64,000 nt of DNA from Strigamia acuminata (lineage: Eukaryota; Arthropoda; Chilopoda; Geophilomorpha; Linotaeniidae). The stretch is taken from assembly GCA_949358305.1 (NCBI GenBank), contig OX442314.1:33909608-33973607 (forward strand), read 5' to 3'. This document shows, in pieces, positions 3,120 to 25,500 of this stretch. The position numbers and the translations under genes were made by a program. How positions within the stretch are numbered: position 1 is the stretch's first letter; every line of letters begins with the position of its first letter. The notes beneath the pieces were generated by a model that had not been told where the DNA came from, did no database searches, and saw nothing but the letters and a program-made list of their open reading frames with translations.

Positions 3120-6100
3120 TTATTTCTTCAAGTTATCGGCGTAACTTGGCTTATCTTCCGAACTTGGTTCGTCCAGGTTGGGAGATGTGGTCAATTTTGA
3201 AGAGTAGTCCGAGGGGTCTTCGCTCTCGTTCAAGTAGAATCGCAGGTGTCCCGGCGCCTCCAGCGGATTTCCCGTTCGTTCGTGGGCCCAAATCGGTGGC
3301 AGGAAGGCCGACATACCTTGATTGGTGTGGTGGATTCTTTGGGCCTCGGCGATGCTGGTTGGCGCGCGATGCGCTCGGAGGAGCCGTTGATGTTGGATGA
3401 AGCGATCGTCTCCGGCTCCGGCTTCAATAGCATCCTTCATCCAGACGTAAAGAGAATAGCCACGGTCTGGGGTTTGGAGTAATTTTGTCTCCGTGTCCTT
3501 CGTCAAGGACAACCCCGGGAAGTACATCCGGAGTCTGGCGGCGATCTGAGGTTCTGTCGTCCCTGAAACCTTCGTGCCCGATTTTGGGCGGAGCATTTTT
3601 CTTTTTATTTCCTTCTTTTTGAGCGAGACTGGTTCGGCCAGTGGCTCGGAGGGTCTATTTTCCTTCGGTGGAGGCGGAGGAGGAGGCGTCGGATCCCTGG
3701 GAGCCGGAGTTTCCACGACTGGTGTGGTCACCGAAGATGACGGGAGCGGATGTTGAATGATCGCTCGAACGTTCTGGTAGGAGGCCTCTGGATCCGGGTC
3801 CTGGGCCACCATTTGGGCTCGAATTATTGCCGCGGAGGGCACTAGGCGTGCCCAGCTGTCTACGAGAGCCGGCGGGACTTGGAAACCCTCGTGGGCCACC
3901 ACGATCCAGGCTGCTACAGCAACACGTGCGTTTCGGAAGGTGGCGGCGGCCAGCAAAATCGACATCAAGTCGGTAATGGCAACCACGATCCTCGTATTCC
4001 AATTTGGATGATCCCGATTCTTGTTCTGTGTATATTCAATCGAGATCCGCTGAAGATTCGTGATGACGTTCTGGATCACGTTTTGTTGGTACGAATCCAT
4101 TTCGCACAAAAGTGCTCTGGCCTGCTCCACGGTTGTGACGTCCAGGAATTGTTGCAACGTTACCTCCGAAGGGTTGATTGGAGTCGAGGCTTGGACGACT
4201 GCTGGGGCTGGCAACATCGGATTGGGTCCCGTGGATGTCATTGGCTGAGGCACAGATCTGACCAGACGTCTTGATTTTTCCGGTTCGGGCTTGTCCCAAA
4301 CAATTGGAGTTCTCGTTGAAGTTGAAGCTTCGGGGATAGTTGGGAGAGGTTCGACTTTGGCTGGTCCAAAGCGAGCTTCTCGATGCTTGAGTTGTTCTTC
4401 AGAACTCAGTGTCGGTGCGCCGATTATCACTTTCTTGCGAAAGGCGCTTGGGAGGCTGACGCTAGATGTTACGCTTCCCGTCTGCGAGAGTTCTGGCTTG
4501 ATGAAAGCACTTGGCGCCGTCTCTAGACTCGAGGCGGTCGAGGGAGTTGGGCGGTAGATTGGTTTCGGCTGCATTTGTTGGTATTTCATAACCACTGCGA
4601 GGAGATCTGCCTGAGTATACATCTTTTTCTGCTCAGGGACCTCGTCGATGATTACTTCGTCGTCGGTCTTCTTCGGTTCGGGACTGTCCCGAATCGATTT
4701 GGTATCTTCGTAGCGTCTCCTATCTCGCTGTCGTATTTCCTCTTCACGATACGCTTTCCATGAACGTGCGCGACTCTCTGATCCTCTCCTTCTTCGTTCG
4801 TCTTGAAGACAGAGGTTCTCTCGTTCACGTCGGGCTTTCTCATCACGTTCACGTAGGAACTCTTCTCGGTGTCTGTTCCAAGACTCTTTGTTTTCCTCCC
4901 GCCGTCGAAAGTAATTTCTACGATAATCGTCCCAATTTTCTTGGTTCCTATCGCGTCGGCGTTGATCTTCTCGGCGGTCGGGGCGTTCGCGTACATTTTC
5001 TCTTCTACGGCTGGTTGACGGGGCGTCCCTAGATTGAAATCGCGATGTTGGTGGGGCCTCCGTTTTTCCTAGGCGAGAGAAAGCGCTTGGTTTGGCCAGG
5101 CGTTTCTTTGTCGCGGGTTTCTTACTCTGTGTGCTGCTGGAAGTGCTTGGCTTGTCCAGGCATTGTTTCTTCGCTGAGCAGCCTCCTTCGTCGTGCTCGT
5201 TGGAGAGACGTTTCTCGGCCTTCTGGCGTTTGCGACCAAAAAATCCCAAAAAATGCAATTGGTGCATTGCTCGCTGCGAGGTGATAAATCCGTGCCTCGG
5301 TCTCCAATCTGGGCGGTCGGGCCGGTCTTCGCGGATCTGTTGGAGCCAAGTCTTAATTTCCTCGGTCGAGTAACCGTCCGGCTGCAAATATTCGAAAACT
5401 TCGTCATGAGCGGTCCGCCTCACCTCCTCGTAATACGCCATATGGATTTCGTATTTTTCTTCCTCTGTTTCGGCGTCGCGCCATTGTTCGTACACTTCCC
5501 ATCCCCGTTGGTCGTCTGGAAAGGCGGCTCGTATTAGTGGATTCGGGATTGGCGCCGGCGGATCCATATTTCTTGAAATTACCGCCCGCAAAGCTGCTTG
5601 GTATTGGCGCGGCATGTAGTAGATCAACGTTTGCTGGCTGGACCAGTAGCGGCTGATTGCACGAGATAATAAAAGGCGAATTTTCCATGGTTCAAAGTTG
5701 ACCGATTCTTCGAGCGCTTGTCGGAACAGTATGGGGATGACTTCTCGCCATAAGCTGCCTGCGGAAACTCTTTTCGGGTCGATTTGTCCCCACGTAGTGC
5801 GATATCCGTCCTAAATATTAGAATATTAATGAATATATTAGGATCGTTGATTAATTTGTCATATTTTTCTTTTAGAGATTCTTTCGTCTAACACAAGATG
5901 GCGTCATGGTCGGCCATGTGCTTTTCGACCACGTGTCTTGAAGTTACTTTTTCTTTCGGTATTTGATTAATTTTGACAATTTGTCACTTAAAGTTAAATT
6001 ATTTCTTCGTTTGTGGTCAGTCCACGAACTTATTTCGTATTTTTGATTATCGATAATTGAATTTTTTTCTATTTTTTACTTACGTCGGGTTGGACATCGA

Positions 6101-6233
6101 GTTCATTGGGTTCGTCCCAATTTCCCTCTTCGTTGTTTACAATTATTTGTAACAAATCCACTTGATCTTCATCGTCATCCTCGGAAGCGTTGTTTACGGC
6201 CCGTTCAATTTCTTTCTTCCAATCATTTCTCAT
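3120..6233 (-). CDS. Outer element third gene (ORF3), two exons, unknown family
   Basis: Exon 1 is 6233-6084 (50 codons, ATG at 6231-6233), acidic, with WDEP near its end and donor GAC|GTAAGT. Exon 2 is 5810-3120 after acceptor TTTAG|GAC. Both junctions are phase 0 and the joined frame is open, giving 946 residues. The intron is 273 bases. Exon 2 has an N-terminal helical region, a conserved block ending in a GFI(T/A)(S/T)Q motif, a long arginine-rich stretch (RRR, RDR, RRRR clusters, about residues 250-390), a proline-rich segment, and a C-terminal domain with LLRAHRAP. No signal peptide, clear membrane anchor or furin-type site is seen, so it is not a normal envelope gene. The inner element has a homologue with the same exon plan. 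Role unknown; RNA binding is a guess from composition. Confidence 0.8.
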
Positions 6234-6451
6234 TTTTCGGAAATTAATTTGATACTTTGATTTACGGCTGCCTCGAGGTGATCGTCGCTTCGTCGGAGAT
6301 GACAGTGATAAGTGTGGGTCGGGTTAGAGGTTAACTATTAGTCTCATGTCGTCTTTGATTGGTTTGGCCAATTAAGACGCATTGTGGGACGTAACAGGTG
6401 TCCCCCCTGTGGTTGTTTTTATCGATTGTTTGAGACAATGGCTGGAGTCGT
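6234..6451 (-). other. Outer element pol-ORF3 spacer
   Basis: About 220 bases between the old pol stop and the ATG of ORF3 exon 1. I see no reading frame. In the inner element the corresponding spacer is 444 bases and holds a tandem duplication. Confidence 0.6.
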
Positions 6452-6490
6452 TTATTGTTTTCCGACGAGTTTCCCGTCTTTTATGAACGG
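6452..6490 (-). pseudogene. Cut-off tail of outer pol
   Basis: Read in the pol frame through the duplicated ACGG (6487-6490), this segment continues the outer pol for about a dozen codons to a TAA at 6454-6452. The tail is closely similar to the last residues of the inner pol. The inner element therefore landed within the last codons of pol and not in a spacer. Confidence 0.8.
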
Positions 6491-7309
6491 TGTGGTGACC
6501 CCGCGGGTGGTCGTCCCTCCAGTGGACGCCATCCGCATGAGTCACTAGGAAAGGTCAGTTCCCTCGCGTTGGCTCCGCCTTCCCCCCCCTGGGAAGCGCG
6601 TGCCCCGAGGGGGTGAGGTGACGCGTGGCCGGCCCCCATTGGCCGAGCCAGGCCCCTCACCCTGGCCTATATCAGGTAGAGTTTCGCGCCCTACAAGCAG
6701 AACTTACACAAACGACACCAAGAACACAGCAACTACCTCACCGTCAGGCCAACTCCACCAAAAGTTAGGATTGATAGAGGACCGCTGATTCCAGTGCAAC
6801 TGTAACTCTCACGAATTTACACTGTGTGTTTATTTCCCGCGAAAGCAGGAAAATAACCCTTGTGAATTCACACCGAATAACCGACCCACGGTTATTCCAC
6901 CACTAAAGTGTCCGAGTGCCCTGTAAGAAACTCCTCGTTTCTGGACGGAGCCTTGCGACGCTAAAACCAACCCCTAGACAACAGGCACGGATAGAAGACT
7001 CGAAAGAGCATTCCACCGCGTCCGTGAACGACGAATCCGTGACGAATTTACGACAACTCGAGACGCCGCCTTTGTTCCGCCGACCACGCGGAACCGACGA
7101 CGCCATCTTGAGAAATCCTTTGTTCGACTCTGACCAAGTCGACTCTAGTTTTATACTGAGTGTATTTTAAGGCTCACGCCTATTGAATAAACCTGTTTGT
7201 TCATTTACATATACTTAGTATTCATTTGGGTAATTTACATATTTAGTAGAATCACAGGTAAAGTAACACACGTTAGCTCATTAAACCTATCACCAGGTAG
7301 GACGCGACA
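6491..7309 (+). repeat. Inner element 5' LTR
   Basis: 819 bases from TGTGGTGACC to GACGCGACA. A TATA-like CTATATC is at 6667-6673 and a polyadenylation signal AATAAA at 7186-7191. I found no difference from the 3' LTR. Confidence 0.95.
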
Positions 7310-7311
7310 CG

Positions 7312-7329
7312 TGGGGGCCCGTCCGGGAT
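7312..7329 (+). promoter_or_regulatory. Primer binding site, tRNA-Pro type
   Basis: TGGGGGCCCGTCCGGGAT begins two bases after the LTR. It closely matches the tRNA-Pro primer site used by gammaretroviruses. The outer element has the same site with one base changed, at the same two-base distance. Confidence 0.8.
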
Positions 7330-7404
7330 TTAGAAATAAATCTCAACTGAACTTGTGATCTCTCATTTAATATAATAACCCAAATCGAAGAATTACTCAA
7401 AGAA

Positions 7405-8688
7405 ATGTCAGACCAAGATGAACAATCCGCGTCTGATAACGAGCGACCTACGCTCGAAAAGGGAAAACGGACCTCCGACTATAACTTAAGGTCGGGCGGC
7501 CCAGTTCCCGAACAATCCGCGAAGGCGAAAGCCCGAGCGAATCGGAGGAAAGCAAAGGCGCAGAAAGAGGAAGCAGCTGCTTCGCTCGAGGCCCTAACCG
7601 AGCCCGAGCGAGAGCCGCTCTCCTCAGATATGCCCTTTGTCGAAGATACCGATACGGAAGTCCTAGAAAATCAAGAAGAAATTCGCGATATAACAACAGG
7701 ACGAGTGCCGATACTGGTAGCCGAGGAGAGGACGAAAACTCCAAGGCAGACAACCATAATCGACCGCAACCCATCACCGGAAAAAAGTCACCAATCCGCC
7801 CCCCTAAACGAAACTCCGGTACGAAGCACGAGCAGGACCCCAATGGCCTCCAGCGCCTCGGCGAGACCTGCCCCTGTTTCCCCCGAAGTGGCCCATTTAA
7901 TTCACCTATCGCAACAGGCAGCCCGACTGAAAGCAGTAACCGATATTCCGCCGGGAACATCAGTCTGGGACTCGATTACAATACTCACGAAAGCAATTTG
8001 CGCAGCACAGGCCCCGACGCCAGTCGCAAGACCAGCGGCGGAGACGCCTGTAGCGCAAGAAACGCCAAGTGACGTAGGTAACTTCGTGCCCGATCCTCAC
8101 AAAGCCCTTCACGAATCTCGGGAGAAAGCCCGAGAAGAATCGAGGCAGGAAACGATAAATCGTCAGCGTAGAGTGAGCGCTGAGAGGAGAGAACTTTGGA
8201 ACGAGGAAGAGGAACGACTGCAGCGAGAAAAAAGGACCACGGAGAGAACGGAAGAAATGATACAGGAGATAAGGGAAGAGCAGGAGGCGAAAATACGAAG
8301 AGAATGGAATAATACAGTAGAAGGAAGGCACAGAGAAGCCCAAGACTACGAAGAACAATTCCGAGCCCTCCTGGCCCAACGAAAAGCCGAGAAATTGCAG
8401 AAACTGAGAGAAGAAGCTCAGCGGCAACACCAGAAGTGGGAAGAACAATACCACGAAAGGATGAAAGCCGCAAGAGCAAGGAGAGAAAAGGAGCAACTTC
8501 TTGAAGACCAAGAAGAATGGGAGCGGTACAGATGGACCGACGAGTACCAAGCTAAGAAAAAAGCAATAATTGACGAACAAAAACGATGGGAAGCCGAAAA
8601 TTGGGAAAAGGAAACAGAGAAATTCCAAAGAGAGTACGAGCAGGACGTTTCAGAGAAGAGTAAAAAAAAAGGGTCCGGAAGCGGATAA
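7405..8688 (+). CDS. gag: Inner gag, N-terminal part (coiled coil)
   Basis: 427 residues: a disordered, charged start, then from about residue 230 a long helical region very rich in Glu, Arg, Lys and Gln that should form a coiled coil. It corresponds in place and composition to the N-terminal part of the outer gag, which is one continuous frame with the rest. Here the frame ends at 8686-8688 a few codons after nine A residues (8662-8670). The next gag frame is +1 relative to this one and overlaps it. Either an extra A broke a single gag, or slippage at the A9 tract joins the two parts. The ATG at 7405 follows the leader and is the first ATG of the frame. Confidence 0.75.
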   Translation: MSDQDEQSASDNERPTLEKGKRTSDYNLRSGGPVPEQSAKAKARANRRKAKAQKEEAAASLEALTEPEREPLSSDMPFVEDTDTEVLENQEEIRDITTGRVPILVAEERTKTPRQTTIIDRNPSPEKSHQSAPLNETPVRSTSRTPMASSASARPAPVSPEVAHLIHLSQQAARLKAVTDIPPGTSVWDSITILTKAICAAQAPTPVARPAAETPVAQETPSDVGNFVPDPHKALHESREKAREESRQETINRQRRVSAERRELWNEEEERLQREKRTTERTEEMIQEIREEQEAKIRREWNNTVEGRHREAQDYEEQFRALLAQRKAEKLQKLREEAQRQHQKWEEQYHERMKAARARREKEQLLEDQEEWERYRWTDEYQAKKKAIIDEQKRWEAENWEKETEKFQREYEQDVSEKSKKKGSGSG

Positions 8689-10525
8689 AGAGCCCACCGA
8701 GGGCTCCAAAGCCGAAACAAAAAAGAGGAAGTCACAGGAAGACGACCAACCGGACAGAAAATCCAGAAACCGTAACCCCTCGAAACGATCCGAAAGAAGC
8801 GCCGCGATCGACGCGTTACTTAACAAAAAGAACGCGAATAAGGACCGCGAGCGCCCAGAAAGCGAAGAGAATAGATGGTATTCTTTTTACGGGAGCAGCG
8901 ACGAAAAGGAGCCGCCGCCCTCCGGAGGCTCGAAGAAATCACGGGATGGCGAAGAAGTCCCCCCGAAGGGACCAAGAGACCGCCCACAAGGCGACCCTTC
9001 CGACCCTTCTGATTCATCAGACGACGACGACCAAAGTCGACCGTCATCCGGACCACACCGAGAGAGTCGCGGCAGCAACCAGCATCATTCGGACCGACCG
9101 AATGCCTCTAACCGATCTTCGCACAGCTCTCGCCCTTCCATACCGGAGGGGAATTTCCAGGACTCTGCCGGCCGACACTATACAATGGCTGAGCTGGGAC
9201 GTGCCTTATTGAACTCTTTCCGAAAGGAAGGAATCGACTTAGGCCACCCCGGAGATGAGCATAACCGCGCCGGTGAAAGGGTCAAACGCAAATATGGCGT
9301 GCGTAACGAACCAGCGGCCGAAGCCACGGGCAATATCCGATGGCAACACTACGTACAAACGCGATTCGACGGTTCGTGGAAAGCGGGAGACCGCTTCCTC
9401 GACGAGGTCATGAGAATTAAGAAAGCTACAAAGGCGACCGTCGCCGATATGCTTACACACGGCCTCGTAGAGTTGACCACCGGATCAGCCCGCGAGTGGT
9501 ACCAAGGACTGAAAAATCCGACCTGGGACGACTTTCTCGTCCGTTTCGACCTTCGATACGGCGAGACACCGGACGAGATCAGCAACAAATTGCGTGGCCT
9601 CCGTCAAGCCCCAGGTGAAACACTCGCCGATTACGACGCCCGAGCGAAATTACTCTTTGCCCGAGCACCGTACGAAATTAACCCTGCCGGGTTTACGATG
9701 ATTTTCTACGGGGGATTGTCAGCACATTCACAACGAATATTGCTGGACATGCGTGCTCCCCGCACTGGCGACTATCGGGATGTCAGTAATTATCTCCTAA
9801 CCAATACGCTGGAGATAGAACAAAGATACTACGCCTCACTGCCACCTGAAGAGGCGGAAGCCCACGAAAAGCGACTAATAACCAGCGCCGAACGCCATAA
9901 AGCTTCCGAGAAATTAATGAGACCGAGCGAATACCTCAGCGGCATAATGAGCCTCACTGAGGCATCTTCGGGACGGACGTTGACACCAAAAACCGGTGTC
10001 ACGCTCCCAAGCAACCCGATTGCTGCCCCAAAGAAAGCTCCGACGACTACAGCGATGCAGGTGACCTCGACTGACTTAGCCACCTCGGCAAAAGCAGAAG
10101 AAGCGTCACCTCCCGCGGCGGTCGCCGAGCCGACAGAAGAATCAACCGATGAAGAAGACCTGCACGAACACCTCGAGAACCTATCGACGGGGTGCGACGA
10201 GCAAGGTCCGTACCTTCATCACGCGCACCGAGCGCTAGCCATCACTCAATTCAGAGCTCACGCCCGCGCAGCCAAGGAAAAAGGGGCGCCAGGCCCCAAA
10301 AGACGGTTCCCAACAGCATTCGTCCCGAAAAAACCAGGTTTCACACCCACGGGCGACAAAAGCAACATCAAATGTTACAGCTGTGGGGAATACGGCCATT
10401 ATTCCGACAAATGCGAAAAAACGGCCAAAATCACTAGTGAGACACAGACTATGATGAAGATGATGGCCGAATTAAATATCGCCCTGGCAAAAAACTGCCA
10501 AGCGCAGGCGTCGTCGAAGAAATAG
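8570..10525 (+). CDS. gag: Inner gag, capsid and nucleocapsid part
   Basis: The frame is +1 to the upstream gag part and shares about 120 bases with it; its real use probably starts at the A9 tract. It has a disordered Ser/Asp/Arg-rich stretch, then a retrotransposon-gag capsid region (AREWYQGLKNPTWDDFLVRF, then LRQAPGETLADYDARAKLLF), and a single CCHC zinc knuckle CYSCGEYGHYSDKC close to the C-terminus. The protein should pack element RNA. The last codons hold the slippery heptamer A AAA AAC, at which ribosomes would pass into pol by -1 shift. Confidence 0.85.
   Translation: MTNKNDGKPKIGKRKQRNSKESTSRTFQRRVKKKGPEADKEPTEGSKAETKKRKSQEDDQPDRKSRNRNPSKRSERSAAIDALLNKKNANKDRERPESEENRWYSFYGSSDEKEPPPSGGSKKSRDGEEVPPKGPRDRPQGDPSDPSDSSDDDDQSRPSSGPHRESRGSNQHHSDRPNASNRSSHSSRPSIPEGNFQDSAGRHYTMAELGRALLNSFRKEGIDLGHPGDEHNRAGERVKRKYGVRNEPAAEATGNIRWQHYVQTRFDGSWKAGDRFLDEVMRIKKATKATVADMLTHGLVELTTGSAREWYQGLKNPTWDDFLVRFDLRYGETPDEISNKLRGLRQAPGETLADYDARAKLLFARAPYEINPAGFTMIFYGGLSAHSQRILLDMRAPRTGDYRDVSNYLLTNTLEIEQRYYASLPPEEAEAHEKRLITSAERHKASEKLMRPSEYLSGIMSLTEASSGRTLTPKTGVTLPSNPIAAPKKAPTTTAMQVTSTDLATSAKAEEASPPAAVAEPTEESTDEEDLHEHLENLSTGCDEQGPYLHHAHRALAITQFRAHARAAKEKGAPGPKRRFPTAFVPKKPGFTPTGDKSNIKCYSCGEYGHYSDKCEKTAKITSETQTMMKMMAELNIALAKNCQAQASSKK
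10489..10495 (+). promoter_or_regulatory. Gag-pol -1 frameshift heptamer
   Basis: AAAAAAC sits in gag frame as GCA AAA AAC, a standard -1 slippery site. The pol frame is open from here, upstream of its first usable start. The outer element has TCA AAA AAC at the same place. Confidence 0.75.
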
Positions 10526-13500
10526 AATCGACTTCGTCTGCGAAAGCCGAGGAAATAACAAGGAAAAAGAAATTCCATACCGGACCTGCCGGTCACGCCA
10601 TACTTGATGCGCAAGTCAAAGACCGAGCCCAATCCGCACCGGAGAAGGAAGAAAAAGTGATACTGAGGGGCATGCAAGTGAGAACTGAGGCCAAAACAGA
10701 CGATAGTTGGGCCGAACTCCCGTTTGACCTGGACGTCGTACCGCAGAAATTGCGAGTATTTCACTGCAACGTCTCAAAGTCACATTGCGAGACACTCTGT
10801 ATGTTACCAGTGACCATTGAAAACCAAAAGTTACTGGGACTACTGGATTCCGGAGCGGATCGTTCTTTCATATCGGAAGATCTAGTCGAGAGCCTAGACA
10901 TCGAAGACAAAATGATGAAAGTGAACGAGAATGTGGAATTACTCACGGCTAATGGCTATGTAAAGCCAAGGGGCGTAATAAAAATCACCATCGATTGGAG
11001 GGGAGGGAACCTATCCCACCCCTTCTTGGTGCTGCCATCCCACGACAAGGTGTTCCTCCTCGGAATCGACATCATGGCTAAACTAAAAATACAGCCAAAT
11101 CCGATAACGAGATCGTGGAATTGGATAAGCCCCGAAGGTGAAAGGCCCATTCCAGTAGTACCCCAAAAAATACTGGACGAGGCCCAAGAGAAGGAGGAAT
11201 ACGAGAGAGGACTGCGAAAATTCGTACAGGACTACGATTTCGTAGCCTTCGCTCTGGAATTGCAAAGAAGCAACATGGTGGACACGTTGGTCGAGGAAGC
11301 CGCTCTGCAAGTCAACGAAGCGTCATTACTGAGGCGAATACTTCGTAAACACGAGCGGATCCTCACCAAAACGCCCGGAAGGACGACCGAAGCCGTACAC
11401 GAGATCGTACTAACGACGGACAAGCCGATTCGCGTGCCATACAAAGGGATGAATCCCCAAAAACGGGACATAGTAACCCAGATGTGTCAAGACATGCTCG
11501 ATAAAGGCATCGTCACAGAAGCACTGGGCGAATACGCGATGAGGATCGTCCTAGTAATGCGACCCGGCTCCGAGCCTCGCTTGTGTATCGACTACCGCCC
11601 GCTCAATGCAATAACGGTGATAGATCCGATACAGATGCCCTCCATCGAAGCGATTCTCCGGGAGCTGGCTCCATTTAATTGGGTAACCACCATGGACCTG
11701 TCAAAAGGGTACTGGCAAGTCGAACTCCGACCAGAAGACAAGTTAAAAACAGCGTTTTACTCGCCTATAGGGCGATTAATGTTTAACGTAATGCCATTCG
11801 GACTCGTGAACGCACCAAGCACTTTTCAAAAGTTAATCGAAAGCGTCCTCGGAGACATGTTGCACGATTTCGTCTGGGCTTATCTCGACAATATCATTAT
11901 TGCATCAGACACTTTCGAGGAACACCTAGAGCACATAGACCGAGTGGTCTCCCGTTTAGCCAAAGCTGGACTCCATGTCCACCCCGGAAAGAGCAAGTTC
12001 TGTAGAAAAGAACTTGCCTTCCTCGGCTATCGAATCGGAGTTGAGGGGATCGCCATTGATCCCGAAAAAGTACGAGCAATAAATGGATTCCCGGCACCCG
12101 AAGATATAAAGGGAGTCCAGAGATTCATGGGAATGATTAATTTTTTCGGCAGACTGCTCCCCAATTTGGCAGAAGTGGCTGCGCCCGTAACGGACCTCCT
12201 GCGAACCGACCGCGAGTTCGCATGGACGGCCGAATGCGAGGCCGCCTTCAACGCCATAAAACAAATGCTGGCCGACGTCGACAAAATGCCGCTACCCGAT
12301 CTAAACCGACCGTTCGTACTGCATACCGACGCCAGCCGGGTTGGCTTGGGAGCAGCCCTCTTGCAAAAACACACGTATAACGGAATAGAGCAAGAAGTAC
12401 CCTGTATGTTCATAAGCCGAAAAATACAGGGAGCCGAGAAAAATTACACGGCTACAGAACTGGAGTGCTTAGCCGTAATATGGGCCGTTCGGAAATTTCG
12501 TGACTACCTAGAGTATACGAATTTCGAGGTGCAGACCGATCATCAGGCATTAAGTTGGTTGATGAAGTTAAAAGAACCATCCGGCAGACTCGCCAGATGG
12601 CAACTCGAACTCATGGCGTGCGACATCACAATAACATATCGCCCCGGAAAATTCAATCAGGTAGCCGACGCTTTATCGCGAGCCCCGGCGTCCGACCCCC
12701 ATGGTCCGGACGACGACGGCGAAGACGATTCGCGTCTACTTTATTGTCCGACGCCCAGACGGATCTGGCGCCTCCGTAAAGCGAACGAATTGCCCGTGAT
12801 GGAGCCCGCTGATAAGACTTTTTGTGGTTTCTGGACTCGGACGTACCAGCCAGCTGGAACAACCGACACAACCACGGAAACAAAACCTCCGGTCGTCCCA
12901 GAGGCCCCAAAAACTCTACTGCGAGCCTTCGCGGCCACAATAGAAAAGAAAACGCAATACGCGCCGCCAACAAGACTCGAGTTCATCGAACATCAGGCGA
13001 CCGACGCCAAATGTCAAATAATGACTCGATTCCTAGAAAAAGGGGAATACCCGGTCGACATGACGAATCCTCATCGCAGAAAGCAATTTGCTAAGGAAGC
13101 CACCAGCTACCTAATAGACGACGGGTTGCTACTGAAATACCACCCGACGTTTCAGGACGACCTTAGCGGAGCGGGAAACGCGATAAAAGTGGTGGTGCCT
13201 GTCTCGCTACACACCCGATTGCTGTGGCTGATGCACGGGCACCCACTCGCTAGCCACGCCGGCATAGCAAGAACACTGTACCGCGTGAAGCAGATTCTTT
13301 TTTGGCCCGGAGCCCGCCAGAAAATAACGAAATTTATTCGCCACTGCTCCCGGTGCCAAGCATGTCGACCTCGCGACAAAGTGGCCAGAAACACAATGTC
13401 TCTCGGCCCCTATGCTCCCTTTGACTGTTGGAGTGTTGACTTGATGGGCCCCAAGCCCACAACAAGCAACCGCAACATGTATATACTGGTAATTATGGAC

Positions 13501-14631
13501 GTAGCGACCCGTTGGCCCGAGTTGTACGCCCTCGCAAAGCCCTCGGCGGAAAATATCGCCGAGTGTCTTTACGACGTGGCGTTGCGATTTGGGTTTCCTC
13601 GGAAACTCATTTCCGATAACGGACCCCAATTCAGGTCCAAAATATACAAAGAATTCTGCAAGAAATTTAAGATGGAGATTTCAAACACCTCCACTTATAA
13701 TCCTCAAACGAACCCCGTGGAAAGGCTGAACAAAGACGTGAAATACGCTTTGACGGTGTTCACCGACGTACACAATCGGTGGGATGAGTATCTACGTGAG
13801 ATAGCGTTCAGCATTCGCTCCACCGTATCACGAACACGCGACTTCTCACCGGCGTTTCTTAATTTCGCCCGCGAACTAAGAATGCCGTGGGACCCACGAG
13901 TTGCGGAGGCAGTGAATGTACTGGACCCCGCTAACCCACACGAGTACGTATGCCGCTTGGAACAGACAATTTCCGACACATATCAGCACCTAATGACTCA
14001 CATCTTTGACCTACGGGAAAGGGTTGCAGAAAAAGAAGGAGAATTAGATTTCACGAATTTCAAGGTCAACGACCTGGTGTGGAAGGAAACACACATATTA
14101 TCGAATGCTGCGAGGGGCATCGCCGCGGGTCTGGCCGACAAAAGGGACGGACCCTATGTAATTGTGGCAGAACACGGCGGCAACGCCTACCAATTGCGCA
14201 GATTAACAGATAATAAAAATTTCCAGTCGATCAACGGCCGGGAATTAAAACCATATCTGCCAGAATTTCGCCAAGAAATATGGCTGGAAGGTCAGACACA
14301 CAGCGGCCAAGGTGGCACAGTGGTCGACACATTCCAAAATAACAACGAAGTTGGCGAAGGAGCAGACGAAGATGACGAATTTTTCGACGCCGAATCCCAA
14401 CCCGCAGATGCTCCCGATCAAACGGAGCAAGCAGTCTCGGAGAGGGAGGAAGCAGAAGAAAATACTTCTGAAAAAGAAAAAACAAAATTAGAAGAAGTAA
14501 ACAATACCGCAACATCGGAGATGAGCGACCAAGTGGGAGCCGATACCACTCGCGAGCAAAAACGCAACCTTCGACCGCGAAAATCGAAGAATCCGTTCAT
14601 CCAAGACGGAAAAATCACCGGGAGAAACTAA
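10496..14631 (+). CDS. pol: Inner pol polyprotein (PR-RT-RH-IN)
   Basis: The pol frame is open from the slippery site; the first in-frame start-like codon is GTG 10657, so expression by -1 shift is more likely than a separate start. Numbering from 10657: aspartic protease LLDSGADRSF (about 63-72), reverse transcriptase with YLDN at about 409-412 where Ty3/gypsy enzymes have YLDD, RNase H HTDAS (about 555), integrase zinc finger HxxxH...CSRCQAC (about 865-903), integrase core Asp in WSVDLMGP, Asp in SDNGPQF (987), Glu in NPVERLN (1022), and a GPY/F module KRDGPYVIV. It lacks a chromodomain. The second catalytic Asp of reverse transcriptase is changed by GAT to AAT, so activity is doubtful although the LTRs are identical. 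Confidence 0.9.
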
Positions 14632-15075
14632 AAGAAAGAAAAATGGTCAAAACATGTGATGGCGGCGTCGTAAAATTGAAGAAATTCACTTACGAGAGCT
14701 GCAACGCATGTCGAGACATAAAATTCGGCTAAGTCCGAACTTCGTCGTCAGTTATCACCGTCAATATCGAAAAGCGAGATTGCATGACGTATCGGTCGAA
14801 ACCCCGTAGCGTAACATGCGCACGGCTCGATCGCATACGTCGGCCCCGTAGCGTAACATGCGCACGGCTCGATCGCATACGTCGGCCCCGTAGCTCCACG
14901 CTCGCACGGACAAGTCTCGTACCGTACGAGACGCGTCCGTGACCCATAATCCTCTGCGCCGGTCGGTTCCACTTCCGTTTGTTTTCTTGAAAGCAAAGGC
15001 ACGCGTTCTCTCTCTTTCACCGAGAAAGTAGAAAAAACCTCTTTCTTTCAAGTTGAGCAATCTGAGTTTTTCTTT
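14632..15075 (+). other. Inner pol-ORF3 spacer with 42-bp tandem duplication
   Basis: A non-coding spacer of 444 bases. Two identical 42-base units (14802-14843, 14844-14885) and the first bases of a third (from 14886) lie here, GC-rich with CGATCG and CGTACG-like palindromes. It precedes the ATG of ORF3 exon 1 and may hold its promoter or an RNA-export or translation element; that is inference. Confidence 0.6.
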
Positions 15076-18000
15076 ATGGCCGATCGACGCAACCCGAGAA
15101 TTGACCCCGACGCCTCGTCCTCCAGAGACGAGAGCGAAGGATTGGTCATCGAGGCGGAGGAGGAAGATTGGGATGAGCCGGAGCAACAACCGCAGGTAAC
15201 ATAAGATCTTCCCGTAAGATCGAAAAATGTAATCCGCCGACATCCGACACCATGTCGGATTGTGGCGCGTGATAACTTGACTGATGAATTCTTTTTGTAT
15301 TTATTTTGTTGATTTTCGGTAGAATCGGAGCTCGGGCGCGGAAACCTTTTTCGTGCTCGAAGATCTCCGATCTCCAAACCCAGACAAAGGAATTGTTTGC
15401 CAAGATGGCGTCGCTAAAAAATTAAAAACTAAAAGTAACGTTGAAACTTCGTAATAAATTAAAAAATACGAATAGAAAAGCTTAAATAAAAACAACCGAT
15501 TCTTTTGTATTACGCGACGTTGTTTTGAGCGGACCTCCTGAATCTAAAAAAGGTAGCAAGAGAAAGATTGAGCTACACCAGCGGCCAACCACCGCGGACC
15601 TGCGAATAATCAGGACGGAGAGGAGCGGCCACAACCGAAAGAAATTTTGGTGCAACCGCCGATCTCGCAATTTTTATTCCAATTATTTATAAAAAGGGTA
15701 TCGAAATTAAAATATACTTAATGCTTCAGATCGACCCGCTACAATCATGGGACGCCCTGCCGTCTACAGTGCCCACCAAGGGCAACATCTTCCGGCTAGC
15801 GATGCCAGAATTTATCCGGCTAGCCTATCCAGAGGAAGACACCGATGTCTGGGCCCTGAGATTACGCTACTCCCGAGCGATCGAAGAATTCTTTGACCGA
15901 CCCAGGACGCTGGTCGAATGTTTGCCCAGGCAAATACGAGAAAGGGTGGGGCCACGGATCGATCCCGATTTCGATCCGTCGAGCCCTATTTTTTCAGAGC
16001 TACTTCGAGCTCGGTACGGCGGTACAGAGGCGGACGAGCGCACCGGCCTTCGGTGGCGCCACGCCGCGACGCCAGAGGAGCGGAGACGAATCGTCCGCGA
16101 GGAAATCGCTCACCTAGAGCGAACGGCAACCAGTGCCGTAATACGAGTTCTGGAGCAAAATGGTTTCTCGACGGGAGAAATCAAAGAATGGTTACGAGAG
16201 GCCCGCGAAGACCGCCAAGCAACACCGTGGGTGCCGCCCGTCGGCTTTATCGCCACTCAAGCCGAAATGTGGCAGCTGCATCAAGTCGGCATCCTTCAGA
16301 GCGGCACACGAGTCAGGAGGCTGAAGAGACAGGCCTCAAGCTCAAACGGCGACCCCGCTCCGAGTGGGCAGGCCCTTTCCACCGAGGAGAGCGGCCCGTC
16401 GACGAGCGGGACGCAACCCGGCCATTCGAACAGTTCCGACTTAAGAATTCAAACGGTCACCCAGTCGGGAGGCCTGCGCTCAGTCGTGATTGTACCCGCC
16501 TCATCCCGCGAATTACGGATAAATCCAGAGGCCGGACCTTCCAACTCGTGGAGCGACCGGGTCGACGAACAGGAGAGACAAGCGGCTACCGCAGCCGCGC
16601 CCTCTCTCTTCCTAGTGCGCACCGTCCGGCCGTCGGACGAAGAGTCGACCATGTTCGACCAAACAGAACCCCCGTACAAAATCCGAAGAGACTCGGTAAC
16701 CCATTCGCACGTCGAAACCGCCAACACCAGGCGCAACCGGAAGAGCAGAGCTCGCCGCAGGCAAAGGATGCAAACCCTGCTTGCGAAACTCGCCGCCGCC
16801 GAGAAGAGGCCGACCGCCGCCGGTAGTTCGGACTCGCCAAGAGCCGGACCCGCGGCCGTGTCGTCCTCCGATCGGAAGAAGGGACCCGAAGGATGGTGCG
16901 AAACCATTGAAGAAAAAATGGATTTGGACGAAGGGCCAAAAACGGATAAGCCCATGTCACGAAGAGAACTGGCCGAAGTACTCACCAACGCCTTTCGCGG
17001 ATTCTCCGCGAACCGGCCACCGCCCTCTGCGGGCCAAACCACGCTCGCGCCATCCGCACCAACCTTCCATCCGGTCCAACCAAGCTGGCCGCCTCTCCTC
17101 GAGGCCCCACCACCAGCCATAACTAGATGGACGCCCCCTGGAAGCATGCGACCAGGCGAGGCGTTCCTAGAATACGTCCCGCACCGACCACCAGGACTGG
17201 CTCCCCCGCCGGTCCCTCCGCCGACTCAGGCGCCGAGGCCGGCTCGTGACGCCATGTGGTACGAAGAAAAAGAGCGGGATGCCCGAAATCGACGAGAGGC
17301 AGCGAATCCCACCTTGGGAGAACTACAAGCCCACCAGGCTGAATGTGAGCACCCCGCTACCGCCGAACGGGCCTTGGCACAAGCTGACGCCGCTCAGACG
17401 GAGCACATCAATTGGGCGATAGCCCAAATGCGCCAACTATCCGCCACTTTTTCGGCGGATCCAAACCGCGCCCTGCCACTCAGCCGAAGCAGTTTAAACG
17501 CCGAGGTAACCCGCGTAATGTCCGAGATCCTGTCTCCCGCCCTCTTCCTGGACGGCCGACAGTCGATGGCCGCCTGGACCATAATCGACAGAGAGGGCGT
17601 CTTTCTAAACAGGGCCCTCTACCAACTTTGGGCCGAATTTACGCCAACCGCGGCCGACCTTCGATTCGAGTTGGCCCGCTCCATGGAAAACCCGAATTTC
17701 CAGTTCGCGAAGATGCGTTCGATGGCATTCCGCTACCAAAACCCAGGGGTCCACCCGACGTTGCTACGAAAGGTCGCCGAAGAGGCGTCCGCTAAGGAGG
17801 AGGCCGTCCGCCCCATCGTGGTGGCCGAGACGGTTCCTCCCAAACCTGCCGCCCGGAGTTATACCCCGTCTCCGAAACCAGTATTCCCGAAGGAGCGAAG
17901 ATCGAGCAAGCGACCGAAGCTAGTCCCGAAGCGGTCACGCAAGGGACCCCAAACTCCACCACTGCCGTCGCCCTCGCCGCCTTCTACGAGCATGGACGCC

Positions 18001-18534
18001 CTGTCCATAGAGGAGACAACTCCCCCGTTGGAGATTCCCCTACCGCCGTCTCCACCACCTCCGCCTCCACCGGCTCCCGCGCCGACGCAGCTTTATCTGC
18101 GATTGGAAGTGGAGTACCCTAACCTGCAAATGTCCGAAGCGACGCGCCAAGCGTTGCTAGCCACTCATCGCCAAGGCGAATCATTCCTACAGTGGATGGC
18201 GAAGGAGATAAGGTTGACCAACGACCCGATCCTTCACCAACGGCTCCAGCGGGCTCACCGAGAGCCCCTCACACCGCCGGAATCGCACCGGATGCGTCGA
18301 TGTCCCGGCCGCTTCCCCGCTTCGACCCAAATCTGGGTACATGAAAGAAGAAGCAGCACGGACGGACCTCCCGGCCACGCTCAATTCTTCATCAACGAAT
18401 CGGAGAATCCAGCGAACCTGACCACGTCGCTGCCCGATGGCCTTCCTCCGCCACCGCCAGCCGTTAATCTCCCAATCCTACGTCCCCGCAGAGGGAAGTT
18501 GCCCGCTATTGCACTGAGAGACCAAATAGGGTAA
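15076..18534 (+). CDS. Inner element third gene (ORF3), two exons, unknown family
   Basis: Exon 1 is 15076-15195 (40 codons, acidic, WDEP before the end, donor CAG|GTAACA). Exon 2 is 15730-18534 after acceptor CTTCAG|ATC. Both junctions are phase 0, giving 974 residues; the intron is 534 bases. The joined plan is the same as in the outer element, and exon 2 aligns with it over several blocks: an IDP start, SRAI, PRQ, GFSTGEIKEWLREAREDR, a WQLHQ/HQLHF block, a central AAWTI segment, a proline-rich linker, and the C-terminal RLQRAHREP...WVHER...FINESENP. No signal peptide, clear transmembrane segment or envelope motif is seen. Central parts are rich in Arg, Ser and Pro and likely disordered. 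Homologues across two diverged elements imply selection. Function unknown. Confidence 0.82.
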
Positions 18535-18570: not shown

Positions 18571-19389
18571 TGTGGTGACCCCGCGGGTGGTCGTCCCTCC
18601 AGTGGACGCCATCCGCATGAGTCACTAGGAAAGGTCAGTTCCCTCGCGTTGGCTCCGCCTTCCCCCCCCTGGGAAGCGCGTGCCCCGAGGGGGTGAGGTG
18701 ACGCGTGGCCGGCCCCCATTGGCCGAGCCAGGCCCCTCACCCTGGCCTATATCAGGTAGAGTTTCGCGCCCTACAAGCAGAACTTACACAAACGACACCA
18801 AGAACACAGCAACTACCTCACCGTCAGGCCAACTCCACCAAAAGTTAGGATTGATAGAGGACCGCTGATTCCAGTGCAACTGTAACTCTCACGAATTTAC
18901 ACTGTGTGTTTATTTCCCGCGAAAGCAGGAAAATAACCCTTGTGAATTCACACCGAATAACCGACCCACGGTTATTCCACCACTAAAGTGTCCGAGTGCC
19001 CTGTAAGAAACTCCTCGTTTCTGGACGGAGCCTTGCGACGCTAAAACCAACCCCTAGACAACAGGCACGGATAGAAGACTCGAAAGAGCATTCCACCGCG
19101 TCCGTGAACGACGAATCCGTGACGAATTTACGACAACTCGAGACGCCGCCTTTGTTCCGCCGACCACGCGGAACCGACGACGCCATCTTGAGAAATCCTT
19201 TGTTCGACTCTGACCAAGTCGACTCTAGTTTTATACTGAGTGTATTTTAAGGCTCACGCCTATTGAATAAACCTGTTTGTTCATTTACATATACTTAGTA
19301 TTCATTTGGGTAATTTACATATTTAGTAGAATCACAGGTAAAGTAACACACGTTAGCTCATTAAACCTATCACCAGGTAGGACGCGACA
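18571..19389 (+). repeat. Inner element 3' LTR
   Basis: 819 bases, apparently identical to 6491-7309. AATAAA is at 19266-19271. The outer pol frame reads 20 bases into it, which gives that pol a false C-terminus and stop. Confidence 0.95.
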
Positions 19390-22300
19390 ACGGGTTTGGC
19401 TTGTGTCGACGCATACCGTATATTTTATCAGGTTTGAGGATTCTTGTAGTCTTATTTTTGTTTGATTGCTTTCCTTTTTTAGGAGATTCTTCGACTATTT
19501 CCTCCCTCTCCGAAATCTCATCCGGGGCGTCGGCCGCTTCGTGTAACTCATCTTGAACTAAATTGGTTGGGCCAGTTTGTTCATCTAAAAACATGTCGCG
19601 AATAATTGGATTTTGCGCTGGTTTCGTCTGATATTCCGTCCAAGCCTCTTGAGGAAACTCAGGTAAGTATGGAGTTAATTCTCGGGCGTGGATCGATCTA
19701 AAATTAACGTTGTCTGCCAATCTTTTTAGCTTGAAAGCGTTTCCGCCGTGGGCTTCGAGTATGACGTACGGGCCGTCGCGTTTGTCTGCTAGGCCTGCGT
19801 GGATCCCCTTATCGGCGCTGGACTGAATATGTGTGTCTTTCCAGACGAGGTCATTGACTTTAAAATTGCAGAAGGGCCGATCCTTTCCAGCAATGCTAAT
19901 ACGATCTCTCATATCGAATATGTGAGACATCATGTGTTGATAAGTGGCCGAAATTATTTGCTCCAATCTATCGACATAAATATGAGGCTTCTCGGGATCA
20001 ATTTCCAATATTTCCTCCGGTATTCGCGGGTCCCAGGGTACTCTGAGTTCCCGAGCGAAGTTTAGAAACGCGGGAGAAAATTTGCGGTTCCTCGAGATCG
20101 TTGTGCGGATGCTGAAGGCAATTTCACGAAGATATTCGTCCCAGCTGGAGTAAACATCGGTGAAAATTGCCAGTGCATATTTTATATCGCGATTTAACCT
20201 TTCGACGGGATTGGCCCGTGGATTATAGGTTGATGTATATGATGTCTCGATGTCGAATTTTTTACAGAAGTCTTTATACAAATTTGACGCAAACTGTGGT
20301 CCATTATCGGAAATTAGTTTCCGAGGGAATCCGAAATGAAGCGCCACTTCGTACAAGCATCGAATGATTTTCTGCTTAGTTGGTCTCTCCATTGGAAAGA
20401 GCTCGGGCCATCCGGTCGCGACATCCATGATTACTAAAATATATTTGTTTTTATTGGATGACGTGGGTTTTGGGCCCATTAAATCCACGCTCCAGCAGTC
20501 GAAGGGTGCGAAGGGGCCGAGTGAGATTCTTTCGTAATTCTTGGGCGTCCTAGGTTTGCACGCTTGGCATCTGGGGCAGTGGTGAATGAAACGAACAATA
20601 TCTCGGGTCATTTTGGGCCAAAAATAGAGTTGGTTCGCACGGTAGATTGTTCTGGCCACTCCAGAATGTCCGGCGAGTGGGTGTCCGTGGACCATCCACA
20701 GAAACCTTGTTAGCAGACTCCTGGGTATAACGACTTTCATCGAAGTACCTGTCTCCGTCAGATCATCGCGGAAATTCGGGTGGTGTTTTAGTAGAAGTCC
20801 ATCCTCGATTAAGTACGTGGAGGCTTCTCTTTCGAATTCTTCGCGTTGGATTTCGTCGAAATTCTTGTCGGGAAATTTTTTATCTGTGATGAAGTCTCGA
20901 TAAGTTTTACAGAAGTCGTCTGTCATTTGGGCGGCTATTAATTCGTCCCTGGTGGGCGGCTTGCTGTTTGTCCCCTTGCTTACGTGGGCGACGAATGCTC
21001 GAACGTACTTGTCGGAGATTCGAGGTTCTATCGTTAGCTCGTAATTTGGGTGAGCGTCCTTGACAGACTGGTACGCTCGGAGCCAATAATTGTAATAATT
21101 TTGGTCTCCTGACTCGAGTTTCTCCTTGGGTAATTCGTTTAGCTTCTTAAATTCCCATTTTCGAACGGGGTTTGGACAGTAGAAGAGGCGTGAGTCGTCC
21201 TCTCCGCAGTCGGTCTCGTCTTCGGGGTCTGAAGCTGGGGCTCGTGAGAGGGCGTCTGCTACGACGTTGAATTTTCCGGGTCGGTATTCAATGATTAAGT
21301 CACAAGCCATTAATTCTAGCTGCCAGCGAGCCATTCTTCCGGACGGTTCCTTCAACGCCATTAACCATTTTAGGGCTTCGTGGTCGGTTTGTACGTTGAA
21401 CTTGGTAAATTCCAGGTATGGTCTGAATTTTCGGATTGCCCAGACGACGGCTAGACATTCTAACTCTGTCGCATTATAATTCTTTTCGGCTGCTTGTAAT
21501 TTCCGGCTGATGAACATCGTCGGGACCTCTAATACTACTCCGTCGATGTCATGCTTTTGAAGCAACGCAGCACCTAGGCCAATTCGACTGGCGTCGGTGT
21601 GAAGAGTGAATTCTCGATTAAGATCTGGCAGGGGAATCCGTTTTACATCGATCAACATTTGTTTTATTTTGCTAAACGATGTTTCGCAGTGGTCGGTCCA
21701 CTCGAAATCTTTATCATTGCGTAACAGATCTGTGATGGGCGCCGCGACGTCTGCCAAATTTGGGAGCATTCGATTGAAGAAATTCCCCATGCCCATGAAA
21801 CGTTGGACTCCTTTTACATCTTCCGGGGCGGGGAACTGGCTAATGGCCTGGGTCTTTTTCGGGTCGATGGACAGGCCACCTGTTCCGACTGTGTAACCCA
21901 GGAATGCCAATTCTTTGCGGCAAAATTTACTTTTCCCTGGATGGATGTTTAGTCCGGCCTTTGTGAGTCGCTCCATGACGTCATTCACATGCATCAAGTG
22001 GTCTGCAAAGGTCTGAGAGACTATTACTATGTCGTCAAGATAAGCCCATGCGTATTTGTGTAAGGCATCGCCGAGAACTTTTTCTATTAATTTTTGAAAG
22101 GTGGCGGGTGCGTTTACTAACCCGAAGGGCATTACATTAAACATCAGTCGACCCTGTGGTGCCCAAAAAGCTGTTTTCTCCTTATCCTCTTCCCGCAATT
22201 CAACCTGCCAGTAACCCTTGGACAAGTCCATGGTCGTGACCCAGTTAAATGGGGCGAGTTCTCGTAAAATTGCTTCTATTGATGGCATTTGGATGGGGTC

Positions 22301-23368
22301 AATGACGGTTATGGCGTTTAAAGGTCTATAATCGATGCAGAGGCGCGGTTCGGAGCCTGGTCGCATGACGAGGACAATCCTCATTCCATACTCTCCGATG
22401 GCGTGCGACACGATCCCTTTTTCGAGCAACTCGTTGCACATTGTTCTTACGATGTGTCTCTTTTGGGGATTCATAGTCTTAAAAGGCACTCGTACCGGTT
22501 TGCCCGTAACCAATTCGATCTCGTGCATTACGTAACTTGTCTTCCCTGGATCCTTATTTAAGTTCTTCGAGTGCTTCTTGAGCATTTCCTCGAGGAGTTT
22601 CGTTTGTTCTTCTCCAAGGTTGGCGTCTACAGCCAGATTATGTATTAAATTCTCTTCCTGGAGGATAGTATTAAATGATTTAAAATTATAGTCTTGGATG
22701 AACTTTTTAATTTCGCCTCCTCCCCATTCCTCGTCGTCCTTAGCTTTGTCTAGGAGTTCCGAAGGTATTATGGGTAGTCGTGGGTCCTCGTGGTTGTCGA
22801 TGTAATTCCACGAACATGTGACTGGGTTGGGCTGGATGTTCATCCGTTCCATCAAATCCATTCCTATCAGCAGGATTGTGTCTCGGGTTGGTAACACGAT
22901 GAAGAAATGCTTAATCGTGCCTCCTTCCCATACAAAATCGGTTGATAACGTCCCCACTGCTCTAACTTCTCCCGCTGCCGTAAGAACTCGAATATTCTCG
23001 TTCATTCCCCGTAATTTTCTCTGTATTTTTTCTTCGAGTGATTCGAATAAGTCGGTAGAGATGAACGACTGATCCGCTCCCGAGTCGAGTAGTCCCATTA
23101 ATACCTTTTTGCCGAAAGAGACCGGTATTTTAGCCAGTACGCTCTTCGCTTCTGTTGATAGGTTGCAACGAAGTATTCGCTTTTTAAGAGGATTGGCCTC
23201 TTGCTCAAGCGGTAAAGCCATGAAAGCGTTGGCTATGCCGTCTTCGTCTCTAATTTCGAATTTCCGTTTTTTGGTTGGAGTTGTGACTTCCTCGTCGGCA
23301 GCTTCCTCGAAAAATTTCAACAATTTTTTCATTTCTTTAATTTGTTTTTCCACTAGTGTAAGGTCCAT
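19370..23368 (-). CDS. pol: Outer pol polyprotein, C-terminus replaced by insertion
   Basis: 1332 residues from ATG 23368; the frame is also open upstream to the slippery site, so a gag-pol fusion by -1 shift is expected. Protease LLDSGADQSF (about 93-102), reverse transcriptase with intact YLDD (about 441-444), RNase H HTDASRIGLGAALLQ, integrase HHCC finger (HPLAGHSGVARTIY...CPRCQAC), core Asp, Asp (SDNGPQF) and Glu (NPVERLN), and a GPY/F module (KRDGPYVIL) are all visible. It is closely related to the inner pol. Its last few residues come from the inner LTR (19389-19370); the true tail of about a dozen residues lies at 6452-6486. All catalytic regions are intact, so it could in theory still supply enzymes. 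Confidence 0.92.
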   Translation of the reverse strand: MDLTLVEKQIKEMKKLLKFFEEAADEEVTTPTKKRKFEIRDEDGIANAFMALPLEQEANPLKKRILRCNLSTEAKSVLAKIPVSFGKKVLMGLLDSGADQSFISTDLFESLEEKIQRKLRGMNENIRVLTAAGEVRAVGTLSTDFVWEGGTIKHFFIVLPTRDTILLIGMDLMERMNIQPNPVTCSWNYIDNHEDPRLPIIPSELLDKAKDDEEWGGGEIKKFIQDYNFKSFNTILQEENLIHNLAVDANLGEEQTKLLEEMLKKHSKNLNKDPGKTSYVMHEIELVTGKPVRVPFKTMNPQKRHIVRTMCNELLEKGIVSHAIGEYGMRIVLVMRPGSEPRLCIDYRPLNAITVIDPIQMPSIEAILRELAPFNWVTTMDLSKGYWQVELREEDKEKTAFWAPQGRLMFNVMPFGLVNAPATFQKLIEKVLGDALHKYAWAYLDDIVIVSQTFADHLMHVNDVMERLTKAGLNIHPGKSKFCRKELAFLGYTVGTGGLSIDPKKTQAISQFPAPEDVKGVQRFMGMGNFFNRMLPNLADVAAPITDLLRNDKDFEWTDHCETSFSKIKQMLIDVKRIPLPDLNREFTLHTDASRIGLGAALLQKHDIDGVVLEVPTMFISRKLQAAEKNYNATELECLAVVWAIRKFRPYLEFTKFNVQTDHEALKWLMALKEPSGRMARWQLELMACDLIIEYRPGKFNVVADALSRAPASDPEDETDCGEDDSRLFYCPNPVRKWEFKKLNELPKEKLESGDQNYYNYWLRAYQSVKDAHPNYELTIEPRISDKYVRAFVAHVSKGTNSKPPTRDELIAAQMTDDFCKTYRDFITDKKFPDKNFDEIQREEFEREASTYLIEDGLLLKHHPNFRDDLTETGTSMKVVIPRSLLTRFLWMVHGHPLAGHSGVARTIYRANQLYFWPKMTRDIVRFIHHCPRCQACKPRTPKNYERISLGPFAPFDCWSVDLMGPKPTSSNKNKYILVIMDVATGWPELFPMERPTKQKIIRCLYEVALHFGFPRKLISDNGPQFASNLYKDFCKKFDIETSYTSTYNPRANPVERLNRDIKYALAIFTDVYSSWDEYLREIAFSIRTTISRNRKFSPAFLNFARELRVPWDPRIPEEILEIDPEKPHIYVDRLEQIISATYQHMMSHIFDMRDRISIAGKDRPFCNFKVNDLVWKDTHIQSSADKGIHAGLADKRDGPYVILEAHGGNAFKLKRLADNVNFRSIHARELTPYLPEFPQEAWTEYQTKPAQNPIIRDMFLDEQTGPTNLVQDELHEAADAPDEISEREEIVEESPKKGKQSNKNKTTRILKPDKIYGMRRHKPNPLSRPTW

Positions 23369-23428
23369 CGTTTTCGAGGTTATCGCGAGCGGATGTGGAA
23401 TTATTTTTGTTCCGCCCGCGAGTTCCAG

Positions 23429-23435
23429 TTTTTTG
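23429..23435 (-). promoter_or_regulatory. Outer gag-pol -1 frameshift heptamer
   Basis: On the minus strand A AAA AAC stands in gag frame 10 codons before the gag stop. The pol frame is offset by -1 and open from here through the pol ATG at 23368. Confidence 0.75.

Positions 23436-25463: not shown

Positions 25464-25500
<37 letters not shown>

Follow-up and report, generated by a model that had tools for sequence, protein, structure and literature searches.

A spliced third gene in two Ty3/gypsy elements of Strigamia acuminata and its possible role in the export of unspliced RNA

Retroviruses rely on cis elements, or on a protein made from a spliced message (Rev), to export unspliced RNA from the nucleus. 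Cer1 of C. elegans has a tRNA-Pro primer binding site and a spliced 3' gene, and the protein encoded by this gene, CERV, is needed for export of the genomic RNA (PMC10309623, PMC3315495). CERV has 517 residues encoded by five exons, three of which are in the gag frame, and contains a Cys-rich loop or possible C4 finger; Cer1 itself has no stop between gag and pol (PMC10309623, PMC3315495). The long terminal repeat (LTR) elements of bdelloid rotifers carry diverse non-envelope third open reading frames (ORFs), which are captured and reportedly expressed from spliced messages (PMC5408684). A third gene is also found in two Ty3/gypsy elements of Strigamia acuminata, element 1 (forward strand) and element 2 (reverse strand), in a stretch of 64,000 nucleotides referred to here as the window (GenBank assembly GCA_949358305.1, contig OX442314.1, positions 33,909,608 to 33,973,607 of the forward strand). 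Judged from the sequence, this is almost certainly a spliced, selected, non-envelope accessory gene. The fuller statement, that it is such a gene and that its protein lets unspliced element RNA leave the nucleus, is given a probability of roughly 0.4.

A two-exon gene between pol and the 3' LTR

In element 1, an acidic exon 1 of 40 codons (15076-15195, forward strand) is followed by an intron of 534 bases (15196-15729) and by exon 2 (15730-18534; 934 codons and a stop). The counterparts in element 2 lie on the reverse strand: an acidic exon 1 of 50 codons (6084-6233), an intron of 273 bases (5811-6083) and an exon 2 of 896 codons and a stop (3120-5810). The original prediction was of a two-exon gene between pol and the 3' LTR with a GT..AG intron in phase 0. 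Its coordinates and lengths were confirmed, and the joined exons form one open frame in each element, encoding proteins of 974 (element 1) and 946 residues (element 2). The introns have a lower G+C content than the exons (element 1: 0.40 against 0.61 and 0.61; element 2: 0.29 against 0.42 and 0.53). By matrix scoring, no other donor between pol and exon 2 exceeds the chosen one in either element; the acceptors reach moderate scores only (2.9 and 2.5 bits). The two first exons align with a score of 50 (maximum 35 over 300 shuffles of both intervals). Exon 2 of element 2 is unable to start alone, because a stop codon stands at the acceptor and 65 conserved residues precede the first in-frame Met; these residues align with element 1 with a score of 69, reached by 0 of 5000 shuffles.

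A search of the 237.5-megabase (Mb) host assembly with the element 1 exon 2 protein gave 56 matches. Full-length copies account for 42 of them, and 38 of the full-length copies are free of stop codons. The copies compared below are 41 of the 42 (the window copy and 40 fetched copies; the omitted one scores the same as a used copy), and their selection by similarity to the element 1 protein biases the set to intact ones. The donor GT is kept in 38/41 copies and the acceptor AG in 40/41, and both exons are open with both splice dinucleotides present in 32/41. Exon 2 has a length of 2805 bases in 39 copies and 2823 bases in two, both multiples of three. Exon 1 has 117, 120 or 123 bases in 36 copies and is damaged or misaligned in the other five. 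The length of the intron drifts free of any multiple-of-three constraint (21, 12 and 8 copies in the three classes modulo 3). Although the copies were picked by exon 2 alone, all 41 retain the intron, and a probe for the spliced junction of element 1 had no match in the whole genome with up to three mismatches, a search that diverged copies could escape. By this comparison, the element is copied via RNA that retains the third-gene intron, because all 41 copies contain it; with no spliced junction found, the packaged RNA would escape splicing.

An alternative is that there is no intron, in which case exon 2 would have a start codon of its own and exon 1 would be a product of chance. Element 1 has an in-frame ATG just before the acceptor (15721), which is kept in 26/41 copies; in the remaining 15/41 it is ACG or ATA. 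As exon 1 is itself conserved and exon 2 of element 2, with its stop at the acceptor and its 65 conserved residues ahead of the first Met, could not be translated alone, this alternative can be given almost no weight. Where translation begins can also be judged from the 36 copies whose exon 1 is sound. An in-frame stop directly adjoins the exon-1 ATG on its upstream side in nine of them and lies 18 bases before it in 15, while 12, the window copy included, have no in-frame stop within the preceding 120 bases. From these sequences the exon-1 ATG must be the start codon at least in the nine copies with a directly adjoining stop, since that stop leaves no room for an upstream coding exon.

The original prediction described two diverged proteins that align in several blocks and share an Arg-rich or Pro-rich middle. 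The blocks were recovered, with N-terminal, middle and C-terminal domains aligning far above shuffles (z 40, 22 and 28, respectively). The shared Arg-rich or Pro-rich middle was not: the stretch between the first two domains is not alignable (score 47, reached by 712/1000 shuffles), and its Arg content is significant in element 2 only (21/60, reached by 0/500 shuffles; element 1: 13/60, 229/500 shuffles). By eye, basic clusters stand at matching places in both proteins, after the N-terminal domain and before the C-terminal domain.

Ratios of nonsynonymous to synonymous divergence (dN/dS) were obtained for 17 copies with matching pol, omitting L040 and L020 (upstream DNA mismatched) and L021 and L045 (pol part much diverged). 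The ratio is 0.102 in the pol part, 0.249 in exon 1 and 0.168 in exon 2. It is 1.49 and 2.19 when exon 2 is translated in the wrong frames; the intron, treated as if coding, gives 0.40, 0.74 and 0.76. By domain, the values for 36 copies are 0.167 (N-terminal), 0.247 (first linker), 0.089 (middle), 0.200 (second linker) and 0.062 (C-terminal), pooled over the 594 of 630 pairs with a proportion of synonymous differences (pS) above 0.08; L011, L019, L031, L037 and L047, in which exon 1 is damaged, were omitted. The sequence pairs behind these ratios are not independent. The claim that the gene is kept by selection holds: with a dN/dS of 0.17 against 1.5-2.2 in the wrong frames, comparison of the copies shows exon 2 to be under purifying selection. 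Over whole regions, the correlations between the distances of intron, exon 1 and exon 2 are weak (r -0.04 to 0.30), and recombination among the copies may account for this; the frame contrast is independent of recombination. The pol and spacer distances of the first whole-region comparison were spoilt by L040 and L020, both of which are omitted from a later comparison of 19 copies. In these 19 copies, 54/435 non-CpG sites are variable in the intron and 29/234 in the spacer, compared with 17/56 fourfold sites in the first 600 bases of exon 2 and 3/41 in the last 600 bases of pol. A reading of the slow intron as constrained was rejected: the intron and spacer vary less than the exon 2 fourfold sites, but not less than those of pol, so that constraint on the intron and a shallow genealogy are inseparable.

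Six places with a primer-site sequence were sampled at the expected distance, and two encode relatives of the third gene. The exon plan recurs beyond the two elements in the first of these, a third family (L080/L082) which has the full plan: pol ending in NPFIKDGKITGRT, then an acidic exon of 48 codons, an intron and exon 2. In its exon 1, compared without a shuffle control, WNDP and WDEVEP precede a phase-0 GT, and the intron has 216 bases by manual count. Its exon 2 shows 56% identity to that of element 2 over the N-terminal domain and 47% beyond it. In the second, a single locus (L076, 3-2369), pol has no stop after NPFIKDGK, and its frame leads into the middle and C-terminal domains; the N-terminal domain was not recognised there. 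Decay, a different spacing or an element of another kind could explain the four places without a match. The alignment columns common to the four proteins are concentrated in the middle domain and the C-terminal block HQRL.RAHR.P .. W.HER .. GH. Splicing, which the original prediction proposed, is borne out at the level of sequence by the 41 copies and by the third family with the same exon plan. The gene, its intron and its conservation across copies and families are shown by this comparison.

Protein character and proposed role

The third-gene protein has no relative above the cut-off in Pfam or NCBIfam, and no Pfam-detectable domain of the kinds found in bdelloid ORF3 proteins (DEDDy, GDSL or envelope) was found in it. 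Searches by sequence found no relative in the PDB (one weak match with a two-sequence profile, E-value: 0.19) or among the viral contigs of IMG/VR. None was found among the 7991 proteins scored (those sharing most words) in a collection of 5.8 billion, where low-complexity words may have crowded the candidates. Foldseek with a weak predicted model of the N-terminal domain gave seven matches, the best with an E-value of 6.6 and none significant. No account of the element was found in the literature by title and start of abstract among the matches listed, part of that search having timed out.

Ty3/gypsy elements with a gene in this position raise the question of a diverged envelope or fusion protein. 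Residues 657-675 of the element 2 protein have a hydropathy of 1.84, the only stretch in either protein to exceed the usual membrane threshold. The best stretch in element 1 reaches 0.92, and the N-termini reach -0.47 and -0.66 at best. Each protein has four Cys, none of which are aligned between the elements, and there is no Pfam envelope match; an envelope is thus very unlikely. Capture of a host gene has a precedent in the cellular genes taken up by bdelloid LTR elements (PMC5408684). All 56 matches in the host genome have at least 88% identity, with no diverged host gene seen (49 of 2564 candidates scored), and there is no database relative, which makes capture highly improbable. On both counts the original prediction stands: in the hydropathy scan neither protein has a hydrophobic N-terminus and no membrane stretch is common to both, as expected if signal peptide and membrane anchor are lacking, and the Pfam and host searches matched neither a known envelope nor a diverged host gene.

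The role proposed here for the protein is in RNA export. The third-gene protein would be made from spliced RNA, which would exit by the normal route, and would act in the nucleus by binding the element's own RNA. Once the protein is sufficient, full-length, intron-containing RNA would be exported and hence translated and packaged, as by CERV for Cer1 and by Rev for human immunodeficiency virus (HIV). Because the element appears to carry a working intron, it would need to export, translate and package unspliced RNA. The original prediction offered RNA packaging, export or host interaction as possible functions and made no mention of CERV. Export is favoured over other roles because of the CERV precedent, the two systems having in common a tRNA-Pro site, a spliced gene in the same position, database isolation and fast divergence (PMC10309623). 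By this analogy, an export role can be assigned to the protein only tentatively.

Several observations weigh against the export reading. The first exons of CERV are in the gag frame, while exon 1 here has its own ATG, with a directly preceding stop in 9/36 copies; the CERV Cys loop is absent here, as the four Cys of each protein are not aligned. Selection on exon 1 is measured on few sites (0/10 fourfold sites and 6/40 second positions vary in the 19 copies), and the intron in one frame has a dN/dS of 0.40 compared to 0.25 for exon 1. The AlphaFold models, made from alignments of two sequences each, are poor: the N-terminal domain is helical with a mean predicted local distance difference test score (pLDDT) of 58, and the middle and C-terminal part has a score of 41. 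Nuclear-import patterns occur in different places in the two proteins, two in element 1 (shuffle mean 0.4) and one in element 2 (shuffle mean 1.3, not enriched), and export patterns number 6 and 10 compared to 5.8 and 5.9 in shuffles. Finally, a candidate RNA element resembling the Rev response element (RRE) was rejected. The element 1 spacer and intron fold better than shuffles (z -4.96 and -4.72), but those of element 2 do not share this structure (z -0.66 and 0.43), and it is unexceptional within element 1, where the mean z is -2.4 over 106 windows.

Two other roles were weighed against export. The protein may act in the particle, coating or sorting the genomic RNA as a second gag-like protein or as a packaging protein. 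The predicted all-helical N-terminal domain (low confidence) and the Arg-rich middle in element 2 would suit this role, but a profile comparison with the element 1 gag gives no match, and neither a zinc knuckle nor any other Pfam domain scores above the cut-off; a particle role is unlikely. Alternatively, the protein may be directed at the host, in silencing suppression, element transcription or the choice of insertion site. Fast change is usual for proteins that face the host, and between elements 1 and 2 the third-gene protein is 28% identical compared to 60% for pol (gag: 26% over 414 columns). The acidic first exon also fits a host-directed role. There is, however, no match to a known domain, nor does the dN/dS, which is low within the family, point to an arms race, so that this role is doubtful, if a little less so than one in the particle.

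A further-reaching reading, less likely than not, is that this lineage has its own export system of the Rev/CERV type, which would be either independently evolved or a deep relative of CERV. The third-gene intron would be the switch in such a system, and the core of the protein, which is joined to the end of pol at one locus, may also travel with the enzymes. The exon plans vary naturally across the families, and the conserved residues and the copies are concrete material for testing the role of the third gene.

Architecture of the elements and neighbouring sequences

Both elements belong to Ty3/gypsy (Metaviridae), with TG..CA LTR ends, short target duplications and the order protease, reverse transcriptase (RT), RNase H and integrase. 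The 5' LTR of element 1 (6491-7309, forward strand) has 819 bases and is identical to the 3' LTR (18571-19389); the sequence ACGG is duplicated on both flanks. Element 2 has LTRs of 631 bases on the reverse strand (5' LTR: 27241-27871; 3' LTR: 2300-2930), which have one difference, and a 4-base duplication, ACAT. Element 1 is inserted within element 2, close to the end of the element 2 pol.

The primer binding site of element 1, TGGGGGCCCGTCCGGGAT (7312-7329, forward strand), is the exact complement of two called host tRNA-Pro(AGG) genes (L071 and L072) with CCA added. That of element 2, TGGGGGCCTGTCCGGGAT (27221-27238, reverse strand), matches the complement of these tRNA-Pro genes at all but one base. 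A tRNA pattern gave five matches, of which four were tested and two are inside called tRNA-Pro genes. The primer-site pattern has 833 exact matches in the host assembly, and its reversed control has 0. At L070 (~1490-1540), the primer-site sequence runs on into tRNA-Pro-like sequence and not into an element, and at L069 (~1490-1540) a tRNA-Pro-like 3' part adjoins other DNA. ARAGORN called no tRNA in either, and these arrangements are perhaps traces of aberrant priming.

Element 1 ORF1 (7405-8688, forward strand) encodes a charged protein that is coiled-coil-like by eye and has no Pfam match. It overlaps the gag frame around an A-rich run (8570-8688) in a different frame, and a programmed shift, a lesion and an assembly error are indistinguishable readings of this overlap. 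Element 1 gag (8570-10525, forward strand) has a zinc knuckle (PF00098 just under the cut-off) and aligns with element 2 gag (E-value: 3e-38). The element 2 gag frame (23401-25392, reverse strand) has Retrotrans_gag and zinc knuckle matches; its upstream part is broken by a GGATC-rich insert, the GGATCGGATC-rich sequence at 25300-26190 that interrupts the gag region. Element 1 pol (protease, RT, RNase H and integrase) is an open frame at 10441-14631 (forward strand; first start codon listed at 10657). Element 2 pol (19390-23485, reverse strand) is split near its end by element 1, and its last codons are at ~6490-6453. The gag and pol frames of each element differ and overlap, and both overlaps contain a single A AAA AAC heptamer in the -1 phase of gag (10489-10495 in element 1; 23434-23428 in element 2); pol is therefore presumably read by frameshift from unspliced RNA. 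Element 2 has one further -1-phase A AAA AAC elsewhere in the gag frame. Database pols are remote, the best-scoring of the 120 listed among 379 matches being 37% identical over 53% of the query. In the RT, 64 of 65 residues (pol alignment A1, columns 326-390) are identical between elements 1 and 2, even though the codons differ at 65% of their third positions.

Between pol and exon 1, element 1 contains a tandem 42-base repeat (2.2 units, 14802-14894), where the alignment of the 18 further copies in the comparison is 42 bases shorter. Just upstream of exon 1 (14961-15070), two strongly different versions of ~110 bases exist: 11 of 18 copies differ from the window copy at 39-47 of 107-109 bases, and seven at 2-7 of 110. 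Elsewhere in the window, positions 36403-37011 (reverse strand) match a Mononegavirales polymerase (PF00946, E-value: 8.5e-21) and are an endogenous viral fragment. A CDC73-like single open frame at 61006-62151 (forward strand), in which most of the N-terminal domain is missing, is a possible retrocopy. Short pol matches of 23-30% identity at 39011-39771 (forward strand) are perhaps from a decayed gypsy-like element.

Comparison with known systems

In its position the third gene is like the env of errantiviruses, the env-bearing Ty3/gypsy elements, for which spliced expression is usual; it differs from env in that there is no hydrophobic N-terminus and no common membrane anchor. Bdelloid ORF3 proteins are exonucleases, esterases, coiled-coil or membrane proteins, while there is no Pfam match here (PMC5408684). 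The additional ORFs of plant Retand elements are similar in that a long region between pol and the LTR contains an accessory gene of unknown role; these are antisense, whereas the gene described here is sense and spliced (PMC11963269). sORF2 of Drosophila MDG1-group elements is likewise an accessory protein of elements that lack an envelope, but it is a short membrane protein, as opposed to a large protein with no common membrane stretch (PMC11952523).

Among the published systems compared, the closest likeness in these features is to Cer1. Cer1 is also a Ty3/gypsy element, with a third gene between pol and the 3' LTR that is spliced (here by comparison of copies) and a tRNA-Pro primer site beside the 5' LTR that starts with TGGGGGCC; only the first 8 bases of the site equal the quoted Cer1 site, TGGGGGCCGAACCG. 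CERV and the third-gene proteins both have no homologs known outside their own group, are among the most diverged proteins of their elements and do not resemble an envelope. In addition to the Cys loop and reading frame differences discussed above, CERV has 517 residues and five exons, compared to 946-974 residues and two exons here. Cer1 has no gag-pol stop, while gag and pol here are in different overlapping frames with a -1 slippery heptamer. Because the Cys loop, gag-frame exons and stop-less gag-pol are all absent, these elements are not filed in the Cer1 family. The third gene is called here a CERV-like variant and not a family member, a likening made by described features. A third gene of CERV-like kind would thus be present in another element lineage, in which 38 of 42 full-length exon 2 copies are open and two core domains are strongly selected.

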